This document shows, piece after piece, positions 25,195-37,014 of a stretch of 64,000 bases of DNA. Where the stretch lies: NCBI GenBank assembly GCA_025738555.1, contig JAOVFP010000004.1:5890001-5954000 (forward strand). Reading direction: 5' to 3'. The DNA is from Cyathus striatus (Eukaryota; Basidiomycota; Agaricomycetes; Agaricales; Nidulariaceae). Each line of letters starts with the position of its first letter. Position 1 is the first letter of the stretch. The position numbers and the translations under genes are program-made. The notes beneath the pieces were generated by a model, which searched no databases, was not told where the DNA came from, and worked only from the letters and a program-made list of their open reading frames with translations.

Positions 25195-25494
25195 TATGTG
25201 CCACACACGTATAGCGGAACAACAAAAGGGAGGTAGGTCAGTTTATTACTTTACGTGTTGGACTTGGAGGCGTGGCGCTGAAGCGCATACTCCAGTCCAG
25301 ACTCCTGCGATAACAATAATAACCTAAAGGAGACACAACGTCGCTAATGCCCGCCAACAACGTTGAGCGTTGAGCAACGGAGACATAGCTCATTCAACAA
25401 GACATCTAACAGCCTTGTAATCATCACATATAAATTGCTTCAAGAAATGCCATACTGTATTATAACACAACACTTTACTTGAAACCTCTCAGGT
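25195..25494 (+). promoter_or_regulatory. Promoter-region copy A of a duplicated upstream segment
   Basis: About 300 bp, starting near ATGTGCCACAC and ending CTCAGGTATGGG, align with 36572-36870. Shared blocks include ACAACAAAAGGGAGGT, CTAAAGGAGACACAACGT, AATGCCATACTGTATTATA and ACACTTTACTTGAAACCTC. A TATA-like ATATAAATTG precedes by about 60 bp the place where similarity ends. In copy A the segment leads into a truncated F-box fragment; in copy B it precedes a multi-exon gene. Confidence 0.65.
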
Positions 25495-25761
25495 ATGGGC
25501 CTTCGTTACACACATATATATTTCGAAGATGACACTGCTGACGGTTTGCAAAATGATAATATCGGACGCTTTCTTTCGGTCCCCTGGGTAGAGGATGTTC
25601 ACAACGTCATAATTAATGGTTATCGGCTTACGGAAGACACTCGGTTAATGGTCTTGAGAAACCTAGATGTATCTTCCAAAGTGAAGGACAAGTTGACCCG
25701 TGATGGTGGCTTGTTAGGTTGGGGTCACTTCAGAGATATGATTCTAAGGTCTACGTATTAG
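25495..25761 (+). pseudogene. C-terminal fragment of an F-box protein fused to a duplicated 5' region
   Basis: An 88-codon frame whose residues from about 12 on match the last ~70 residues of the F-box protein at 40732-41968: VPWVEDVHNVIINGYRLTED against APWIIDIQCVSIRADWIADE, and SSKVKDKLTRDGGLLGWG against FSKVKEKLTLRRGLIRWG. The F-box and central LRR part are missing. The first residues (MGLRYT) come from the duplicated upstream segment, where GTATGGG may originally have been an intron donor rather than a start. Probably a deletion derivative. Confidence 0.65.
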
Positions 25762-26465: not shown

Positions 26466-26670
26466 GCTTGTTCTGTCACCGGTCGGTCATCTATGAGGCG
26501 ACACGTCATAAATTCTCATACATCTAATTAATTAAACATTAGATATAAAAATGACATTTTGTCTACTTTGCAGCCCAGACTTGTCGTACACAAGCAATCT
26601 TAACTGTTGCTATTCATTGACAAGAAATCTCCGGCAAATGTGCGAAGCTATCTGGTTACTATCGCTAAAG

Positions 26671-27096
26671 TATGGCGGTCAAAGTGCACATTTATTGTGC
26701 CGCGCAACTTTTTTTGAGGGTGCCGCAACTTTTTCGGGTGATTATTCGGCGCAACTTTTTACACGAGGCCGCAACTTTTTGCACGAGGCCGCAACTTTTT
26801 TTCAGCGCAACTTTTTTTCTAGCAGCGCAACTTTTTTCTGGCAGCGCAACTTTTTTTTTTTTGCGCAACTTTTTTTTTTCTCTGCGCAACTTTTTCTTTT
26901 TTCACGCAACTTTTCTCTATGATTATTTTTAAGTTAATAATGTGACTTAAATTGAATTCAAGTTTGACTATTAAAATATATTCCGTAGTATACCGTGACC
27001 CAACATTACATGAAGCTAAAAATATACAAGGCCCTATCACTCGTCGCACATTTTCCCAGCCGCCTGCACTATGCCACAACTCGTATTATTAAGTAA
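26671..27096 (+). repeat. Left terminal inverted repeat with CGCAACTTTTT array
   Basis: 426 bp. Its outer ~250 bp contain eleven copies of (C)GCAACTTTTT spaced about 12-25 bp, separated by motifs such as CACGAGGCC. Such iterated subterminal motifs are usually transposase-binding sites. The inner part is AT-rich and ends TATTATTAAGTAA. Confidence 0.93.
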
Positions 27097-27136
27097 TGGA
27101 ACTGTGCAAGAGTACATACTAAGCCTCGCGTGGTTC

Positions 27137-28205
27137 CTAGACGCTGGCGCTGCTGTCCAATGATGCGCCGGCATCGACGAGCAGTCCTTTAACAGCGTGA
27201 CTTATTGGGGGTTCGGACAGAGTGGCACTCTCAAAAGCACCACGCTCGCATGCTGATGGACGTTGTTTGCTGACTCCAGTGAAGGAAGGACAACCGGTAT
27301 CACGATATACGAGTCGACGACTATCAGAAAAGTTCCGAATGGCCACCCGTCGAGTGTGTAGTGTGTCATAGGTGGCGGGTGTTTTGTGCACCATTTTTGA
27401 AAGAGTGATGTCTGTCGTATCAACAGGAGGTAACGTAGGCGAGGGGTGGGGAGATCGGGGGGTCTTCTGACAAGGTGGTACTCTCGGGAGCACCACGCTC
27501 GCGTGCTGATAGAGAGGAAGCATCAACATTGACACGCAGTCTTTCAACGGCGTGACTTACTGGGGATTCGGACAGTGGTGCTCTAAAGAGTACCATGCTC
27601 GCGTGCTGATAGGAGGGGGAGGAGGGGGACAGTGGAGAGGATTTGTGAGGGTGAGAGACCCGGAGCGCGTGATGACAGTCTTATACACGGTTTTTAAAAG
27701 GAGTGAGTGATGTCTATCGTGTCAACAGACAGCGACATAGGTGAGGGGGAGTTTAGATCAAGAGAGTATGGTTTTCTGCAATGTAAGACATGTCTGATTC
27801 TTAGTGTTCGTGCGCGACCTTGTACAAAACCAAGAACAAACTTACCAGCTGAAATAGGGATAAGACCCCCTGATGCGCGTGAGGCAGTTCTGATGCCGCT
27901 GGGTGCAGGTGTACCATCTGATAAAGTGGAATTTGTCGAAGATCCCAGCAAGGTTACACTTGCAGTACGGTTGGGATACGAGCACAGATACCCCAACGTC
28001 GTCGTTTAGGCATGGGAGGTGGAATTCCGGTGAACGCAGGGGAAGGGACATAATATAACATTGACTTTGGTATGCAGAAAACGGCATCTCTATCTTTTAC
28101 ATCAGATGTGTGATTATAAAAAAAACATGATACATACGAGTTTGAGAATCTGTGCATTAGCAGGTGGCGACCGAGCAATTGTTGATGCACGAAATACAAA
28201 AGCAC
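27137..28205. repeat. Duplicated left subterminal segments within the transposon
   Basis: A unit containing GCGTGACTTAYTGGGG, then GGACAG and ACCACGCTCGCRTGCTGATRG, occurs near 27196 and 27550. A partial third copy of the last motif lies at 27476-27515. A downstream piece, GATGTCTRTCGTRTCAACAG, occurs near 27408 and 27709. An inverted relative of 27260-27430 occurs at 35225-35390. On the minus strand 28010-27850 there is an exon-like block ending at GTAAGT (GGLIPISA), perhaps from a captured gene; not assigned. Confidence 0.7.
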
Positions 28206-28559
28206 CTCGTCAATCGCAGAAAATTGGAGCCTGAGTGTGCTATTGGAGCCTATGGAGCCATGAGTACAGCCTGGTGATCTTCTAGAGTGGTAACGACACT
28301 TGTATGGTGATAGAAGAGAAAGTGGGGGTACGGTGGGAGGGAGAGGGTAGGAGAAGTTGTCGCAGTGGCATTGTTTGGGGTGTCAGAATCAAACAAGCAC
28401 TGCCTTCGACTAGTAAGAACAAAGGTTTACATAACTATGACAGGCTTCGTCAACCGTGAGATTCAATTGAAACTGATATCGATGCTTCTGAATCTGAGTA
28501 GATTTAAAGTAGACAGTATAATATATTCATGAAATAAGTAAATGTTTTTGTAGATAGCT

Positions 28560-29600
28560 TCAAACCTCCATAACAGGACAAGGCAATAAAGTACCATGCC
28601 AGCTGCGAATTTCACCAATAGCCTCATCTACGTAATGTATTTCCTTTGAAAATACTTGCTTTGCTCCAATCCATGTAACTGTTAACTTCCTGCATGGCTC
28701 ACAAACATCATGAAGGCTTGTGGATTCTAGTTCCTTTAGAATGGATTCACCAGAGAAAGTAGTAGTCGGATGCAACAGCCGACGAGCTACACCATCCCAC
28801 CAATCATGCTCCCAAGCAGCTGCACAATTAAGCGGTGTTTGACAGCTAGGGTCAGTAACCAAAGATGGGGAACGATATGCTATAGCGCTGCACTGCATGC
28901 CGATTTTTGCGTTCATCGAAACAAGCATATGGAAGACAAATGGTCCGAGACGAAGGGAATCGTCCAATGAAAAGGAATTAAGAGGGCGAGTCACTAGCTC
29001 GCGAAATGCTGGAGCAACCCACTGATTGACTCTATAATTACATGCCAGTTCCATCCGTAGTACCGGGCAAAATTCATCTTTGAGCTTCTCAAAGGCACTG
29101 ATGGAATACTTGACACCATCATCGATGAAAAGGTAAGTTGAGAGGTTGAGTATGGCTATGAGAAACTCATTGTAAACACTAGAGTTTCCCGGCTCTGGAT
29201 AACAACTGTATGAAATACTTGTTAACGATTGCTATCTAAATATAATATGATGCTGCATGCGACACACCTAGGCCCACACATCAAATATGTCAATAAATGA
29301 TTGAAGTCAGCTGGCCTGACATTTGAGGAAGGGAGTTTGAATGGCTTCTCATCACTAACACCTTCAAAGTCATTTCCCTGTGGGACCGCAAAAACATTCT
29401 GGAACACAACGGAGTGCTGTGACAAAATGCTTTTGTGAAGACAGTAAAGCACTGCATTATGTGTGTCAGATACCTAAAAAGTCATAAGTTTGTATATATG
29501 CTGAAACTGCTGTAATGAATACCTGTATAACAATAGAACCGTCCTCATAATAGAATTGTGAGTGTCATTTGGGGGTGGGAGAACGACTTTGGGTAGCCAT
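28560..29600 (-). pseudogene. BTB/POZ domain protein gene carried by the transposon
   Basis: Minus strand, divergent from the transposase, with starts about 200 bp apart. The first exon (ATG at 29600) contains SQFYYEDGSIVIQ. The next has the BTB core LYCLHKSILSQHSVVFQNVF, then PVGND-type spacing, FKLPSSNVRPADFNHLLTYL, matching the mushroom BTB family in which the domain mediates dimerisation and Cul3 binding. A final exon (about 29054-28560) gives a helical C-terminal part, with WVAPAFRELVTRPLNSF and a Cys-rich CEPCRKLTVTW, ending CPVMEV. Codon 12 is TGA (29567-29565), a likely CGA to TGA change, so this copy cannot be translated from 29600. The rest is open. BTB genes are not standard transposase partners, so it is either cargo or a captured host gene. 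Confidence 0.75.
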
Positions 29601-29801
29601 TATGCTGGTCTACAATGTGGATCAGACACGTTACAATATGTTTGTTGCCGGAAAGGTTAAAAATACAATTGGATGTACATATTTGTGTGAAGAATGTGAT
29701 TTAATGGATGCTCCCGAACTACTGGACACTGTCGAGTTATCGTGATCAATACTGTGGTGCCTACTGATTCAATTTCTCTACGATACAACGTTGTACTGGA
29801 T
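29601..29801. promoter_or_regulatory. Bidirectional promoter between BTB gene and transposase
   Basis: About 200 bp separate the divergent start codons (29600 minus, 29802 plus). No other gene fits between them, so the two must share this control region. No clear TATA box is seen. Confidence 0.5.
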
Positions 29802-31691
29802 ATGTCTAACTTTCCTTCTCTACCAAACATATCTGACGAACATATATGGTCTGATCAAGTTATCAATGCTCATCAAACACTTTTACACATATACCAAAAG
29901 GCACAACAGATGTTGCAGCTAGAAGATATTGAACCGATTAGGCTACGAATACTATCTGAAACGATCCAAACAGGAATGATGGAAATCTTAAAGGCTCTAG
30001 ATAGAGAACTGGAAGATCACCGAGAGTGGGTTGCTACTTGTGGGGATATACTTCTTTCAGAGGCTCTGAAACTGGAACAAGCTGCAGTGAATACAGAAGG
30101 ACAGTAAGTACCTACCTGTTAATATTTGTAATATAATTGACACTTGATAAAGAGCACCAGAACTTATAGAACATGCCGAGCCTATGTCTGATATTTATAC
30201 AGGGAACCCTGGAAGGCCTGCAAAGGTACTCGATGGTGAATGGTTAGCTGATGCTATGTCTGCGCATCGTAAAATAGCAATCACCACATTAGCAAAGGCA
30301 CTCGGAATACACAGAAATACACTTCGAAACAATTTAAAGCGTCATGGAATTTACAAGCACTTCTCTGATATCTCTGATCTTGAAATAGACATACTTATTT
30401 GACAGTTCAAACAAGAACGACCAAATTCAGGATTGCGTTATGCTATAGGATTTTTTAAGCAGCTTGGAATTCGGATTCAGAAATCAAGAGTACGTTCAGC
30501 ACTTCAACGAGAAGATGCAATTGGACAAGCAATGCGTAAGCATGCTTCAATTCGGAGAAGAGAGTACCGGGTATCACAGCCACATGCTCTTTGGCATATG
30601 GATGGTCATCACAAACTTATACGATGGGGAATTGTTATTCATGGTATTGTGGATGGTTACTCGCACCTAGTAAGTTATTTATGATGTCTACATGATGTAC
30701 TCATAACATTTTATTATGCAGGTTGTTGGTATGAAAGCTAGCAACAATAACCGAGCATCTACTGTTTTACAGGTATTTTTAGACTCGGTCTCTGTACACA
30801 GTATACCATCAAGAGTTCGTGGGGATAGGGGAGGTGAAAATATTGATGTATCAACATGGATGATCAAGCATCGAGGGCCAAACCGTGCATCATACATTTG
30901 GGGACCATAAGTGTTGTTCAAATATCAAGTCAATAGTAAACTAGCTAATGGCTCAAGACAGGTCCACACGCAATACATGAATTGAACATATGTGGGTTGA
31001 AGTTGGAAGTCAAGTTGCCCGTTACTGGTGTGCATTCTTTTTATGGCTTGAGAATCTCCATCATCTTGACCCGAATAACGCCAACCATCTGTTTCTTCTA
31101 CATATCTTATTTTTAGATATGATCAACTCGGATCTCGCAGAATTCCAATCACAGTGGAATCATCATCCAATCTCAGGAGGTGGTCATGACCAGACTCCAC
31201 ATGTAGGATTAGTACATTTAATTCATTTTGAATATACCTAAACTAATCTCAATGTCTTTTAGGATATGTGTTTTATTGGAGAGCTACAGCATGGAATGTA
31301 TAGAGAGCACACTCTACCAATTCACCCAGACACACTTCGGAAATATCCAAGCAATGACAACAGCTTAGATGAATTAATTGCACATGATCAGCAACGTAAT
31401 ATTTGCCATGAACCAACTGTGGTGCCTGCCGAGACATGTCCATTCAATACAGAAGCACAGAGTGTATTCATGGATGCTCTTCGCGATGTGATTGAAGCTG
31501 GGATTATTCCTGAGAATTTAGGTTTGCAGGAAGATGAATGGGAAGGTGGATCTTATCCAGATTCTGAGCTGATCAAGGTTGGAAAAAAAGTTGTAAGAAT
31601 GGATCTTCCATTTAACATATGGTATCCAAGAGCTGTTATATGGGGGATTGCACTTCGTGTTATGGTAGAGTTCCAGCAGGCATTAGCATAA
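29802..31691 (+). pseudogene. DDE/integrase-core transposase, decayed
   Basis: Start ATG at 29802 (MSNFPSLPNISDEH). Exon 1 is alpha-helical, and an intron (30104-30152) leads to a helix-turn-helix block with LGIHRNTLRNNLKRHGI. The integrase core follows: HALWHMDGHHKLIRWG (first Asp), HGIVDGYSHLV, MKASNNNRASTVL, RVRGDRGGEN (second Asp) and RNT-IEHMWVEVGSQVARYW (Glu). After an intron (about 31203-31261) the C-terminus runs DMCFIGELQHGMYREHTLP to VEFQQALA. Lesions are TGA at 30400-30402, TGA at 30978-30980 where the family has Arg before IE, and a donor reading ATAAGT at 30907 in place of GTAAGT. The DDE residues remain. It should be inactive unless complemented by another copy. Confidence 0.85.
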
Positions 31692-31896
31692 ATTTCCAGG
31701 CTGCAAATATAAAGTACAGTTGAGTACGTGTAAATATGTAATAGCATCCTTTAGTCTCTCCAGAAATTTGGCGCATACATATTCTGAGAATACTGCCATG
31801 ACTGTGGTAAAACACGCTTAACTGTCATCACTTCATACTGTATTCTTCCCTCTTCCTTTCATCGAGCTACTATCAACCTATTTTCCCCTACTGTGA

Positions 31897-34082
31897 ATGA
31901 ACTGCTCAGCTACGAGACACAATGGAAAGCTGTGTCAATGCAACATATCTCAAACACACACCAACGGCACAAAATGTCCTACTTGTCACCATACACACAG
32001 CATGGAACCTAGCAGTACGACAATATCAACTTCAGAGCCTCCTGACACTAGCAAACCAGTGAAGAAGACCATTTCCGAGGTGATATCATCATATAGCCCC
32101 AAGCTTTCTCAAATCCGAATGAAAGCATCTGATACAACAGCCCGGCAAGAAACTGTTGAAGGCTTCCGACCCACTCGCCAACATGAACAGAGTGGTAGTT
32201 GTTGGAGTACATCTATTGTAAGTTAGCCCATTACATTTAAGTTAACACTTAATAATCTCTCAGTTAGTCCCATGCAAAGAAGAGTGGGAATAGGAACACT
32301 AGTATTGTAAAAGCTCCAAAGTCGTTGAGAGTAGGAAGCATTATTTTTATACCATGGGGGACTAGCAAGGTATTTTACATTCATCTCACTGATTAATTGA
32401 CGCTTACGACTGAATAGAATGGTCAATTGCTTAATGATAAAGTGCCTGCCGGTAAATTTCTCGAAATCATGTACAAGTATCAGCTTGTAGTATTGAAAAA
32501 AAGTGGACATGGGATCGAGTACAGAGAAGACTGGGGACAGGACAGAATTGACACATTGCTTCGTGGCCTCTTCCCTGAAATTTTTAGATGGCTAGACGAG
32601 CATTTCGGCACACCAACCTCTGGGCAGTATCATTGGATACTTTTAGGAAAACATTACTCTAGGCATTTTCGGTATGAACGGGAGGAGATACGTGGAGAGG
32701 ATATTACAGAGGCACGGGGAACAACATCTCGCAACTGGAAGTCATATTGTATTCGTGTTGGTGAGACTCATTGTTCCATCTTGCATTAATTCTACCTTAT
32801 ACTCTATGATCAGCATTGCTCCACACAATCCCACATATAGTTCAGAAGCTTAATACTGAGATCAAGCCCATGAACCAGCAGTCCATGAGCTCTGACAATG
32901 CAGACTCCAACATGGCCTCAAAACCCCAGCGCACCAACAAGAAAAAGCCAAGGTGGTCCATGAGTTCCGATGATACAGACTCCAACACGGCCTTGACATC
33001 CCAGCGTACCACCAAGAAAAAGCCACTGCAGTCCATCAGCTCCAACGACACAGACTCCAACGCAGCCCTGACATCCCAACGCGCCACCAAGAAAAAACCA
33101 GCAGTACATATTGTCAACGACAGCGACTCGGATGACCTGTTACCTGCAAGGAAACGTTCAGGAAGACAAAAGCAAGTTGTAACAATTATCAGCGAAGCCA
33201 AATCCGATTGTGAGCCAAGTACACCTCGTCCTCGACGTTCTAGGAGACTGTTGCAAAACTCTACACATGCACTGGAAGAAGGAACAGAGAGCGAGACAAG
33301 CACGCCATCTGTGTCAAGCTTTCTTCCATCTGAGGATGATGATAATGACTTACTTTCACAGTTCCAGGTGCCATGTACACCGTCAAGTGAACATCAGGAG
33401 GGGGGTAATATGGATGGAAAGGGTGGAAAGGGTCTCAAGCCGGTGAGTATTGTACTTCAAACGCTTAAGAATTTACCTAACTAGTCCCAAAAGGAATCAT
33501 CCCTTGACACGATGAATGTCTTATCGACCCCTTTATCAGCTATCATAGAAGACATTCCGGCGCGTGATTCATCAAGTGAGTTCACACTGTGCCACACAGC
33601 CTGTCAGCTTCTAAGTTAACAGCTATTATAGTATTGCAAACTAAGCGGAGTCGATCACCAAGCGTCGAAATCATTGAACAACCAACTAAGAGGGCAAAAT
33701 GTAAGTAGTTAATATATGTTGGCTACCATACCTACTAACTCTGACCTATGTAGATGATTTGTCCCCAGTCGATTGGGATTTACTTCCCATTCACTCGAGT
33801 GATGCTGACAGTAGTGACTTCGATGTCATGGCGCTACCCGAGATTGTGGATCATGACATGGGGGTTGGTCTCAAAGGGGATGAACAAGCAGTTATTGACA
33901 CATCCCAGATTCCCACTGCTGGTCCTATTCTTCGTTCTCTCAGCATTCCATCAACTGGACATTTGTTGCACTCATATACGAGTGCTTCATTCCATTCCTC
34001 GTCAACTACCACACAGAGCAGTGCTGTGTGCAAACTCGGGTTTTCAGACATCCCACCTGTTGACTTGGATCCATGGGCCTAG
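31897..34082 (+). CDS. Transposon accessory protein, Cys-rich N-terminus and repeats
   Basis: A multi-exon gene on the same strand as the transposase. The first exon (31897 to about 32218) has a Cys cluster CSATRHNGKLCQCNISQTH ... CPTCHH, compatible with a zinc-binding N-terminus. A 200-nt intron (32219-32418) leads to NDKVPAGKFLEIMYKYQLV and a helical block with EIFRWLDEHFGTPTSGQYHW. Another intron gives a low-complexity region with four ~25-residue repeats of the type MSSDDTDSNTALTSQRTTKK, basic patches (RKRSGRQKQ) and acidic clusters. Small exons lead to a C-terminus ending PPVDLDPWA. The basic and acidic patches suggest a nuclear DNA- or chromatin-associated factor, which is inference. 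No lesion was found, unlike its neighbours. Function unknown. Confidence 0.65.
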
Positions 34083-34863
34083 ATACCGTTAGTCTGGTAA
34101 TAGATCGTTATCACGCCCATGCAGCACTACGTATCATTCTCAGCAAATTTATTTATATTTAAACCATTAGTTCGGTTCTGTGGAATGTATGCTGTTCTCA
34201 TTATTTTCTCACGTCGTCATACTTACAGACCTACAGTATTCTTTAACAACATTCATTTATTCATTTTTAATTAACCCAGTACTCAAATCTCTACGTTCAA
34301 ATTTCTATTACTTAACTCTAATAATTTGTTGCTCTTTTAATAGCTAGCTTAATATAATTTTTAATGTTCAATGGTTACTGCTTGGTTTTGCACGCTACAG
34401 AAGCTGCTGCCAAATAATGCCAACATAGTAGCATACAGATTATCACATGTATATTTGTTGAAGCATTGATGTCCCACGCAACTGGAACACGTCATGTTGG
34501 ATGGTTTCCAGTATCCACTCAGCTTGTATCCAACATCGCTCATGTCTCTACCTCCTTCCACTCTATCTTGGCTTTACATTTGTGCACCTTTGTTCGAAAA
34601 TCGCATTCACACACAGTGCCGCTCCTCGACCCTGACAGCGACCCCAAGGTCACTCTCATTTTTGGTCAGATGAGTAAGCCCCCTAGTGTCTGTGCCCGTG
34701 TCGCTCTTACTGATCTTACCACTGAGACACCCACCTATCATGCCCCCTGCAGCACCACAAACATCCACTGTATCAAGCAGTTCGTTGTGCAACTCATTTG
34801 CTGTGCCTTCTGTTCCTCTAAGTACGCCCTCTCCTCCCGCACGCTGCATGATGGAATATTAGT

Positions 34864-36006
34864 ATGACTACATCGCCGTATACACCTTATGCGCCTCTAT
34901 CGGGTATCCCTGTCGCTGCGTCTCCCTCGCCGCCGGCTCCACAGGGGGGATTCAAGGGCCTCCGTTCCTTTTTGCCTTTTGCCAAATATACCACTACCCC
35001 CTCGCAGTCGCTGGGTACTAGCAATGCAGTGGGAGGGGCACCAGTTACACCAGCCAAAGGGGGAGGATTCGGATTCGGCAGTGTCAGGTGGTCGATGCAG
35101 AAGGAACGCGAGAGGAAAGGAGAGGGAAAGAGAGGGAAAGAGAGAGGGTGTTACCTGTCTCCCTTTCGCAGCATTTGCCGAAACCGCAACCACAACCCCC
35201 TACACGTCGCCTCCTGTTGATACGACAGTCATCACTCACTTCTTCAAAAATGGTGCACAAAACACCTGCCACCTATGACACACACTACGCACTCGACGGG
35301 TGGCCATTCAGAACTTTCCTGATAGTCGTCGACTCGTATATCGTGATACCGGTTGTCCTTCCTTCACTGGAGTCAGCGAACAACTCTGTCCAAACCCAAA
35401 TCCCAGCGCTCCGTCAGTGTGCGACCCACCCCCTTCAGCATCCCCCAACCCCTTCCTTAAAACGCGAACCTTCCTTCGTACATATCCTCTCCCACACATT
35501 ATACAAATAGCTAATCACGATCGACACAGGACTTCAGCACATTCTCATTTGACAGCAGCATCACATCCTCACCTACCGTGGGGCGGCACTTCGACACCTG
35601 TGATCCGCTCTCCCTGCCCGCCGGCACGAGTCCCTTCGATCAATGCCAGTCCATCGTAGATTCATACACTCTTTCAATCAACACTACATTCCCTAATACC
35701 TGGACCAACTCCCCCTCCCCAACCTACGACGCATTCAGCCCTTTCAACTCTCACCCCCTCGATAAAGAATCACCACTCCCATTGCCCACATACGACACAT
35801 TCACCCCCTACACCGACTCCTTTTCCACCATGGAAAAACCCCTTGTTGATTACTCACAGTTCCCTATCTACCACCACCACCAAGGCATGGGCGAGAGCCA
35901 GCTCATGTCCCATGCCGATTTTGACGCATCCCAGTTCGCCTTGCAGCATATTCCTATTGCCGAACTTGATTTGGATTTCGCCAGGTTCTTGGGTGGGCAG
36001 TATTAG
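34864..36006 (+). other. Rearranged, possibly captured coding segments at right end of transposon
   Basis: Two coding-like stretches. One (34864 to about 35100) is Pro/Gly-rich with GGFKGLRSFLPFAKYTT and GGGFGFGSVRWSMQKERER. The other (35578-36006) is Ser/Pro/Tyr-rich and ends with a well-formed acidic tail (FALQHIPIAELDLDFARFLG). Between them lies an inverted relative of the left subterminal unit (35225-35390). The pieces resemble fragments of host regulatory proteins but I cannot name a family. They could be captured exons or a decayed third gene. Confidence 0.4.
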
Positions 36007-36115
36007 ACGCCCTCCCACTCCACTGTATCTCTATCCTATTATCCATTCAATAGGTTCTTCAAGAACCTCCTTCGTTCATTGTTATACACCATCTTGCACT
36101 TGACTTATAGTTTCC

Positions 36116-36541
36116 TTACTTAATAATATGAGTTATGGCATAGTGCGGGCGGCTGGGAAAATGTGCGACGAGTGATAGGGCCTTGTATATTTTTAGCTTC
36201 ATGTAATGTTGGGTCACGGTATACTACGGAATATATTTTAATAGTCAAACTTGAATTCAATTTAAGTCACATTATTAACTTAAAAATAATCATAGAGAAA
36301 AGTTGCGTGAAAAAAGAAAAAGTTGCGCAGAGAAAAAAAAAAGTTGCGCAAAAAAAAAAAAGTTGCGCTGCCAGAAAAAAGTTGCGCTGCTAGAAAAAAA
36401 GTTGCGCTGAAAAAAAGTTGCGGCCTCGTGCAAAAAGTTGCGGCCTCGTGTAAAAAGTTGCGCCGAATAATCACCCGAAAAAGTTGCGGCACCCTCAAAA
36501 AAAGTTGCGCGGCACAATAAATGTGCACTTTGACCGCCATA
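36116..36541 (-). repeat. Right terminal inverted repeat
   Basis: 426 bp, the reverse complement of 26671-27096. The few differences include transitions at CpG-type sites (for example CGCCCGC here, read on the minus strand, against CGCCTGC on the left). Ends CCATA next to CTAAAG. Confidence 0.93.
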
Positions 36542-36571
36542 CTAAAGCAATTCATGAGGTTAGGTAAAATG

Positions 36572-36870
36572 TGCCACACGAATGGCCGACAACAAAAGGG
36601 AGGTCCGGGTTTATTGTGGTTTATTGTTTTACTTGTTGCGCTGAAGCGCCTTTTCCAGCGATCACAACAATTACCTAAAGGAGACACAACGTCTCCAATG
36701 CCCACAAGCAACGTTGAACGTTGAGCGACGGAGAGATACTACTCATTCAACAAGGCATCTAGAAGCCTTGTATAACTCGGCCTTGTTATCACTACTTATA
36801 AATTGGTTCAGGAAATGCCATACTGTATTATAGCACAACACTTTACTTGAAACCTCCCAGGTATGGGTCT
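36572..36870 (+). promoter_or_regulatory. Promoter-region copy B of the duplicated segment
   Basis: Second copy of the segment at 25195-25494. It contains a TATA-like CTTATAAATTGG and ends CCCAGGTATGGGTC. GTATGG at 36861 fits a 5'UTR intron donor; an acceptor at 36994 (CACATAG) would place the ATG of the next gene 20 nt downstream. Confidence 0.6.
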
Positions 36871-37014
36871 ACGTTACACGACCATCCCACAGTGTTCTAA
36901 TTGTTCAAACATTCATCAGTTACCATTTCCTAACAAATTTATATTCTTCACACAATTACAATAGTATGTCTTTTTGTGAAGTCTCGTCACATAGCAACTA
37001 ATAAGCCCTAGAAC

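Follow-up and report, generated by a model that had tools for sequence, protein, structure and literature searches.

A gene-rich lineage of IS3EU-type DNA transposons with BTB-like and accessory genes in Cyathus striatus

We analysed a 64,000-nucleotide stretch of the genome of the basidiomycete Cyathus striatus (GenBank assembly GCA_025738555.1, contig JAOVFP010000004.1, positions 5,890,001 to 5,954,000 of the forward strand; hereafter the window), in which a DNA transposon of 9,871 bp occupies positions 26671-36541. This element belongs to a lineage of the known IS3EU superfamily that is rich in genes, and what is new about it is the gene set: a BTB-like gene and an accessory gene lie beside an IS3EU-type transposase. 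A sequence-only reading of the same DNA had put the element forward as a candidate for an undescribed system, a claim that gives way to this placement. We consider it very probable that this is an IS3EU-type transposon whose integrase-fold DDE transposase acts on the terminal inverted repeats (TIRs). The BTB-like and accessory proteins may serve as helpers, and the copy in the window was probably mobilised in trans.

The exact boundaries proposed by that reading were confirmed. The TIRs measure 426 bp per arm and are identical at 423 of 426 positions. The left one (26671-27096, plus strand) begins TATGGCGGTCAAAGTGCAC, as do other copies, and the right one spans 36116-36541 on the minus strand, giving termini that read TATGG..CCATA. 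Comparison of the flanks revealed the 6-bp target site duplication (TSD) CTAAAG on both sides, at 26665-26670 and 36542-36547. Further inside, an inner inverted repeat pairs 27262-27436 (plus strand) with 35204-35384 (minus strand), the two being 91-96% complementary, piecewise. When the left arm was compared with the host genome (107 Mb in 24 contigs, which we label C2, C6, C16 and so on), at least 43 matching rows were obtained, with 40 of 124 candidates scored and at least two ends counted twice. The full-length copies that had been anticipated do exist within this genome, and other copies share the terminus of the window element. Among them is C16:47048-76753, a full-length member of the window element's own family, which matches it at 97.7% identity over 8.1 kb and is interrupted by a 19.7-kb insertion.

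Pairing of ends was limited to two-ended elements and yielded 17 of them, with target duplications of 6 bp in 12, of 7 bp in three and none in two. Flanks agreed at 6 or 7 bp in 15 of the 17 true pairs and in 0 of 272 mismatched pairs; together with the genome matches, this argues that the window element is not a product of chance. Two of the 17 (C18:1333028 and C6:5543571) had been chosen by an end scan that ranked its hits on matching flanks and on arm identity. The other elements also have TA..TA ends, which is not independent evidence, because such starts were what the search looked for. For five of the ten joined flank pairs queried (those of the insertions C18, C5, C8, C14:2501k and C19), paralogous sites without the element were recovered. 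Nine unoccupied sites were aligned, and in all of them the 6-bp overlap of the flanks appeared as a single target copy, with one changed base there in two of the nine. The empty-site check suggested for the window insertion was thus borne out for five other insertions, but no empty site was found for the window insertion itself in this own-genome query, and likewise none for C10, C16, C21 and C7:1692915.

The same three genes were found between quite different ends. The element C18:1333028-1340200 carries all three genes within another TIR sequence (TSD CTGTAC, first 500 arm bases identical), and three-gene elements with different TIR sequences also occupy C6:5543571-5549861 (TSD TATTTG) and C7:2362625-2371196 (TSD GCCAAT). 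At C7:1745786-1753145, one element is nested inside the inverted repeat of another, with 6-bp duplications AATGTG (inner) and GTGGAG (outer). The same flank was seen at both members of two pairs of copies (C7:1646634 and C7:2157545; C14:2564939 and C14:1904630), pointing to segmental duplications. Such shared flanks are what would be seen if the gene triad stemmed from a single host locus duplicated recently with its segment, and not from a long-standing gene set of the element, an explanation that we find barely credible: several divergent TIR sequences surround the same triad, nine empty sites were recovered, and the 15 different target duplications of 15 elements rule out segmental duplication for most copies.

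The gene types recognised by the earlier reading also held, namely a DDE transposase with a helix-turn-helix (HTH) region, a divergent BTB-like gene and an accessory gene with a Cys cluster. The transposase is encoded on the plus strand in five exons. The first (29802-30103) and fifth (31263-31691) follow from the gene model and a five-copy alignment. Exon 2 (30153-30669) contains the HTH region, the first catalytic Asp (30601-30603) and an in-frame TGA (30400-30402). Exon 3 (30722-30906) contains the second catalytic Asp (30824-30826) and is followed by a splice donor that reads AT in the window copy versus GT in four relatives. Exon 4 (30962-31202) holds the catalytic Glu (30984-30986) and another in-frame TGA (30978-30980). 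The Pfam model PF24764 (rva_4) matched two window exon pieces (E 8.9e-16 and 4.3e-15), and the HTH matches were weak. The transposase model from C16:2239k, with one stop written as X, matched PF24764 at E 5.7e-62 and PF00665 at E 1.9e-9.

At least 156 homologues of the transposase were found and the best 120 listed. Among the named matches listed, the best came from Agaricomycetes and lower ones from Rhizophagus, a sponge, molluscs and fish (Merluccius, Micropterus, Austrofundulus and Megalobrama), while many were unnamed; the integrase group does occur in mushrooms and fish, as the sequence-only reading had stated. Alignment of 28 homologues showed D308 and E343 to be invariant and D251 nearly so (numbering of the homologue P0002). 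The predicted fold of P0002 (predicted local distance difference test, pLDDT, 86.8) matched PDB structures of retroviral intasomes (the best, E 1.0e-5), IstA, TnsB and MuA, with E values from 1e-5 to 2e-4, at 12-14% identity and with low whole-length TM-scores. The fold class predicted for this homologue is that of the integrases. Further PF24764 loci were observed at C15:381148-381741, C11:3429240-3430165 and C7:4700482-4700848, the first of which had no BTB gene of the element type within the 3.1 kb examined. These loci may represent IS3EU lineages without BTB.

In PMC10045372, IS3EU elements are described as ending in TA..TA, as making duplications that are mostly 6 bp long and as encoding an integrase-like DDE transposase without an HHCC motif. 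The window element resembles IS3EU (with GingerRoot) in its TA..TA ends, usual 6-bp duplications, DDE core and lack of HHCC, in line with the likeness suggested by the sequence-only reading, and its lineage differs in adding the BTB-like and accessory genes. We regard it as very unlikely that the element belongs instead to Ginger1/Ginger2, IS481EU or a Polinton-type group. An integrase-like DDE core is common to all of these, and duplications of 6 bp are made by Polintons too (PMC10045372). However, Ginger1 is described there with an HHCC motif and 4-bp duplications, and the window lineage shows neither: an HHCC-like pattern upstream of the core was seen in 0 of the 26 homologues with WHxDGHHK among the 28 best examined and was absent from the C16b model too, and the duplications are not 4 bp. 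IS481EU is described in the same source with TNT..AYA ends and duplications of 4, 15 or 25 bp, and the window element matches neither trait. Finally, a Pfam scan of nine exon pieces from the window returned, at E 0.02 or better, only integrase, HTH and BTB models.

Other IS3EU elements are also known to carry extra genes. Those of rusts that bear TET genes (TET+ IS3EU) are described, in PMC12730594, with TAYGG..CCRTA ends, TIRs of more than 30 bp, 6-bp duplications and a TET/JBP gene located between the transposase and alpha-kinase genes. The window element is similar in its 6-bp duplications, its TIRs longer than 30 bp, its ends and its several genes, one of which runs opposite to the transposase strand. 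The extras differ, being a TET/JBP dioxygenase and an alpha-kinase in the rusts and a BTB-like and an unrecognised protein here; no Pfam match to TET/JBP or alpha-kinase was obtained in the nine window exon pieces scanned. These two key IS3EU papers describe few gene sets (PMC10045372, PMC12730594). The term 'BTB' is missing from the main text of both, and no literature on BTB genes in IS3EU-like elements turned up among the matches listed from the searchable open-licence papers.

The BTB-like gene lies on the minus strand, divergent from the transposase, and comprises three exons. Exon 1 (29523-29600) has one in-frame TGA that is missing in the C16 and C19 copies, exon 2 (29268-29473) carries the BTB/POZ match (PF00651), and exon 3 (28560-29205) ends with the stop codon at 28560-28562. 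BTB is a dimerisation and Cullin-3-adaptor domain. The window exon matched PF00651 at E 2.3e-4 and 21.8 bits, above the cut-off of 20.5, and the BTB assignment of this gene, judged from profile scores, is a weak one. A search beyond the genome at E 0.001 returned only three Cyathus striatus proteins; the query was the model of one divergent lineage, and absence elsewhere proves little. A distant relative of the element BTB-like gene, with 24% identity, was also observed at C6:3590781-3591218.

The accessory gene (31897-34082, plus strand) was modelled with seven exons (31897-32217, 32268-32369, 32418-32760, 32814-33442, 33485-33575, 33623-33700 and 33754-34082) that form an open frame of 630 amino acids. 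Its product displays an N-terminal Cys cluster, a conserved domain and a charged tail. The conserved domain has no Pfam match: no family exceeded a Pfam cut-off for the accessory pieces or for any of the eight aligned domain members, and comparison with PDB gave nothing better than E 0.21. Similar domains presumably occur in hypothetical proteins of mushrooms. At three loci of a distant lineage, the downstream DNA contained a related accessory domain in all three cases (21-24% identity to the window domain); the C6 domain matched that of the window at E 6.8e-6 and that of C18:1337k at E 5.3e-19.

A tblastn search of the window exons over the DNA examined retrieved 22 transposase loci. A BTB-like match accompanied 17 of these and was in all 17 on the opposite strand and upstream, although distant at C7:2365k (3.6 kb) and C7:2147k (8.2 kb). 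Accessory matches were present at 16 of the 22 loci (13 in the first scan, plus three of three further loci with downstream DNA examined). The earlier suggestion of a distinct family with a BTB protein is supported within this genome and qualified by the weakness of the BTB match. Mantel tests on protein distances gave a correlation with the transposase of 0.959 for BTB (17 loci, 130 pairs) and of 0.942 for the accessory protein (11 loci, 48 pairs), values reached by 0 of 2000 permutations in either case, with the limit that the loci are not independent since several are close copies.

The ratio of nonsynonymous to synonymous divergence (dN/dS) between the window copy and C17 was 0.18 for the transposase, 0.17 for BTB and 0.27 for the accessory gene. 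We compared 17 locus pairs, six of which had dS above 1; at that depth dN/dS was 0.13-0.23 for the transposase (six pairs), 0.10-0.21 for BTB (five) and 0.23-0.33 for the accessory gene (four), the transposase values being raised by short non-coding extensions in the queries. Elements of this genome share a three-gene set with correlated divergence and low dN/dS between lineages, and the helper-like genes evolved together with the transposase. It is unlikely, though not negligibly so, that the BTB-like and accessory genes are chance-captured passengers without a role in transposition. The window element does carry host-gene-like sequence, described below, and the rust IS3EU elements carry TET/JBP and alpha-kinase genes (PMC12730594). 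Yet both genes, unlike the captured fragments, are common to lineages with transposases that are only ~46-53% identical in their best-conserved piece, and they keep order and strand, diverge along with the transposase and show low dN/dS.

Several observations weigh against an IS3EU-type element with conserved helper genes. The IS3EU placement is drawn from shared traits rather than from a tree with Repbase IS3EU sequences. Three of the 15 duplications measure 7 bp, although these could also be 6-bp ones next to a variable terminal base, and no duplication was seen in two of the two-ended candidates. The complete elements C18:1333028 and C6:5543571 begin TATGA, not TAYGG. A transposase sequence profile compared with PDB chains gave no match at E 0.01. 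Regarding the BTB-like gene, five of the 22 transposase loci had no BTB match in the DNA examined, and the BTB match at C6:3590781 had no transposase match in the 3.4 kb examined. PF00651 scored just below the cut-off of 20.5 bits on the spliced window protein (E 7.8e-4, 20.0 bits), reached 17.8-20.0 bits in three other models (20.0, 18.7 and 17.8) and found no match in the C16b model or the three Cyathus homologues. The accessory protein had no homologue at E 0.01 among 5,709 candidates, and the fold prediction for its domain is unreliable (pLDDT 39). Finally, dS above 1 between lineages is near saturation, and closer pairs gave dN/dS of 0.24-1.0, as expected for copies decaying after insertion.

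The arms themselves display a regular organisation. The left arm contains an array of 11 CGCAACTTTT motifs (26703-26914, plus strand) spaced 16-26 bp apart, with eight of ten spacings at 19-21 bp, and the right arm holds 11 copies at 36298-36509. This motif occurs nowhere else in the window on either strand and averaged 0.02 occurrences in 500 dinucleotide shuffles of the arm, the motif having been picked after reading the arm. The ratio of observed to expected CpG was 1.48 in the left arm (26671-27096), 0.56-0.58 in the genes (28560-34090) and 0.94-1.04 in the 10-kb flanks, a contrast of the kind that decay of methylated CpG would be expected to leave in the genes of a transposon. Comparison with two relatives assigned to the window copy 32 derived substitutions over 4,611 aligned positions. 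All are transitions, and 19 fall on the 236 CpG positions. For the C16 copy the count was 43, with 23 at CpG.

In the window copy the two arms differ at only three positions, yet two TGA stops interrupt the transposase frame and one interrupts BTB exon 1, so that this copy was probably mobilised in trans with help from other copies; the accessory frame is open. The element had been described as complete, which is correct for its structure and incorrect for its genes, given these stops and the AT donor. In the arms, 1 of 92 CpG positions had a transition; for the gene region the figure was 19 of 236 (Fisher p 0.018). These counts were taken against different references, the arm majority including the window copy's own arms. 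The difference is no more than suggestive of trans-mobilisation, and gene conversion between arms is an alternative explanation.

Based on these findings, we propose that the inverted repeats are the substrate of an integrase-fold DDE transposase, which probably binds the 11-motif arrays at their spacing of ~20 bp. The TATGG..CCATA ends would be joined to the target with cuts 6 bp apart (perhaps sometimes 7 bp), and gap filling at the staggered cuts would produce the target duplication. Excision would proceed by cut-and-paste. The BTB-like and accessory proteins may act as helpers or regulators of transposition or of escape from silencing, and the window copy would have moved with help from other copies.

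A more specific role can be imagined by analogy with VANDAL elements, which have a MuDR-type transposase. The window lineage shares with these Arabidopsis elements and their VANC anti-silencing proteins only the presence of an extra protein and of non-coding short motifs, as described in PMC5735166 and PMC10398659; VANDAL hosts are plants, and an anti-silencing role of the window lineage is hypothetical. As a fungal counterpart of VANC, the accessory protein would bind the CpG-rich arrays while the BTB-like protein would direct a ubiquitin ligase at a silencing factor of the host, so that the element ends would escape methylation and remain active even as the internal genes decay at their CpG sites. 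The CpG-rich arm (1.48), the CpG-poor genes (0.56-0.58) and the unequal transitions (1/92 versus 19/236) allow for such a scenario. It is weakened by CpG loss at 9-17 of 40-46 positions in five of the eight arms examined, and CpG-rich arms would also follow if selection favoured copies that bear the arrays. We consider this scenario speculative and quite improbable.

The sequence-only reading had counted a four-part gene set. Three element genes remain, and the fourth part resembles pieces of two host genes. The segment 34729-35211 (plus strand) is a probable captured host-gene fragment, 89.7% identical to C6:2506873-2507356, which is one among a few related C6 loci; it also matches C6:2530820-2531258 at 90%, plus 52 bp at C6:2531975. 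The segment 35396-36108 (plus strand), with an open frame at 35515-36006, was probably captured from the 3' part of a host gene for an HMG-box protein. It is 88.6% identical to C2:74208-74954, where an upstream exon of the locus encodes an HMG box (PF00505, E 1.7e-12). The coding frames at both the C2 and C6 loci extend past the matched stretch, suggesting that transfer proceeded from host to element, and the second fragment runs across what is probably an intron of its donor, suggesting that capture probably occurred at the DNA level. As far as such comparisons indicate, 34729-36108 is probably a chimeric capture from two unrelated host genes that took place in an ancestor of the window copy.

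The captured DNA is wholly or partly common to the C16, C2:6846k and C19 copies, and the C18 match ends at 34724. Neither TATGGCGG nor CGCAACTTTT was present at the C2 and C6 loci in the DNA examined, which is weak evidence since the decayed copy C11:2384k was also negative in this test. That copy had been considered as donor of the left-arm match and was rejected as a decayed element copy, since it also has arm-like sequence. The fourth open reading frame was likewise considered as an element gene, its dN/dS ratios of 0.14-0.42 in six pairs having looked selected; it was rejected because it matches the 3' part of the host HMG-box gene, and the ratios are weak evidence of selection since mutation is almost wholly by transitions. 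Pack-type transposons (Pack-MULEs, some CACTA elements and Helitrons) carry chimeric fragments of unrelated host genes. The window element is like them in holding probable fragments of longer host genes and differs in its IS3EU-type transposase and in that the fragments sit beside the element's own gene set.

Two further features of the window were observed. Direct repeats flank the element at 25303-25511 and 36654-36879, ~83-90% alike and ~11.35 kb apart. Inside it, in its left part, a 57-bp piece (27616-27672) is matched on C12, C19, C4 and C2 at distances of 7-25 kb from a contig end, and a further match lies 123 kb into C4; this piece is perhaps subtelomeric.

IS3EU is a minor superfamily. 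That this lineage has kept both a BTB-like gene and another helper-like gene while diverging deeply suggests that the transposase needs, or profits from, partners. These elements constitute a natural set for testing the dependence of a transposase on partner proteins, and they provide material on CpG decay, possible movement in trans and the pickup of host genes in a basidiomycete transposon.

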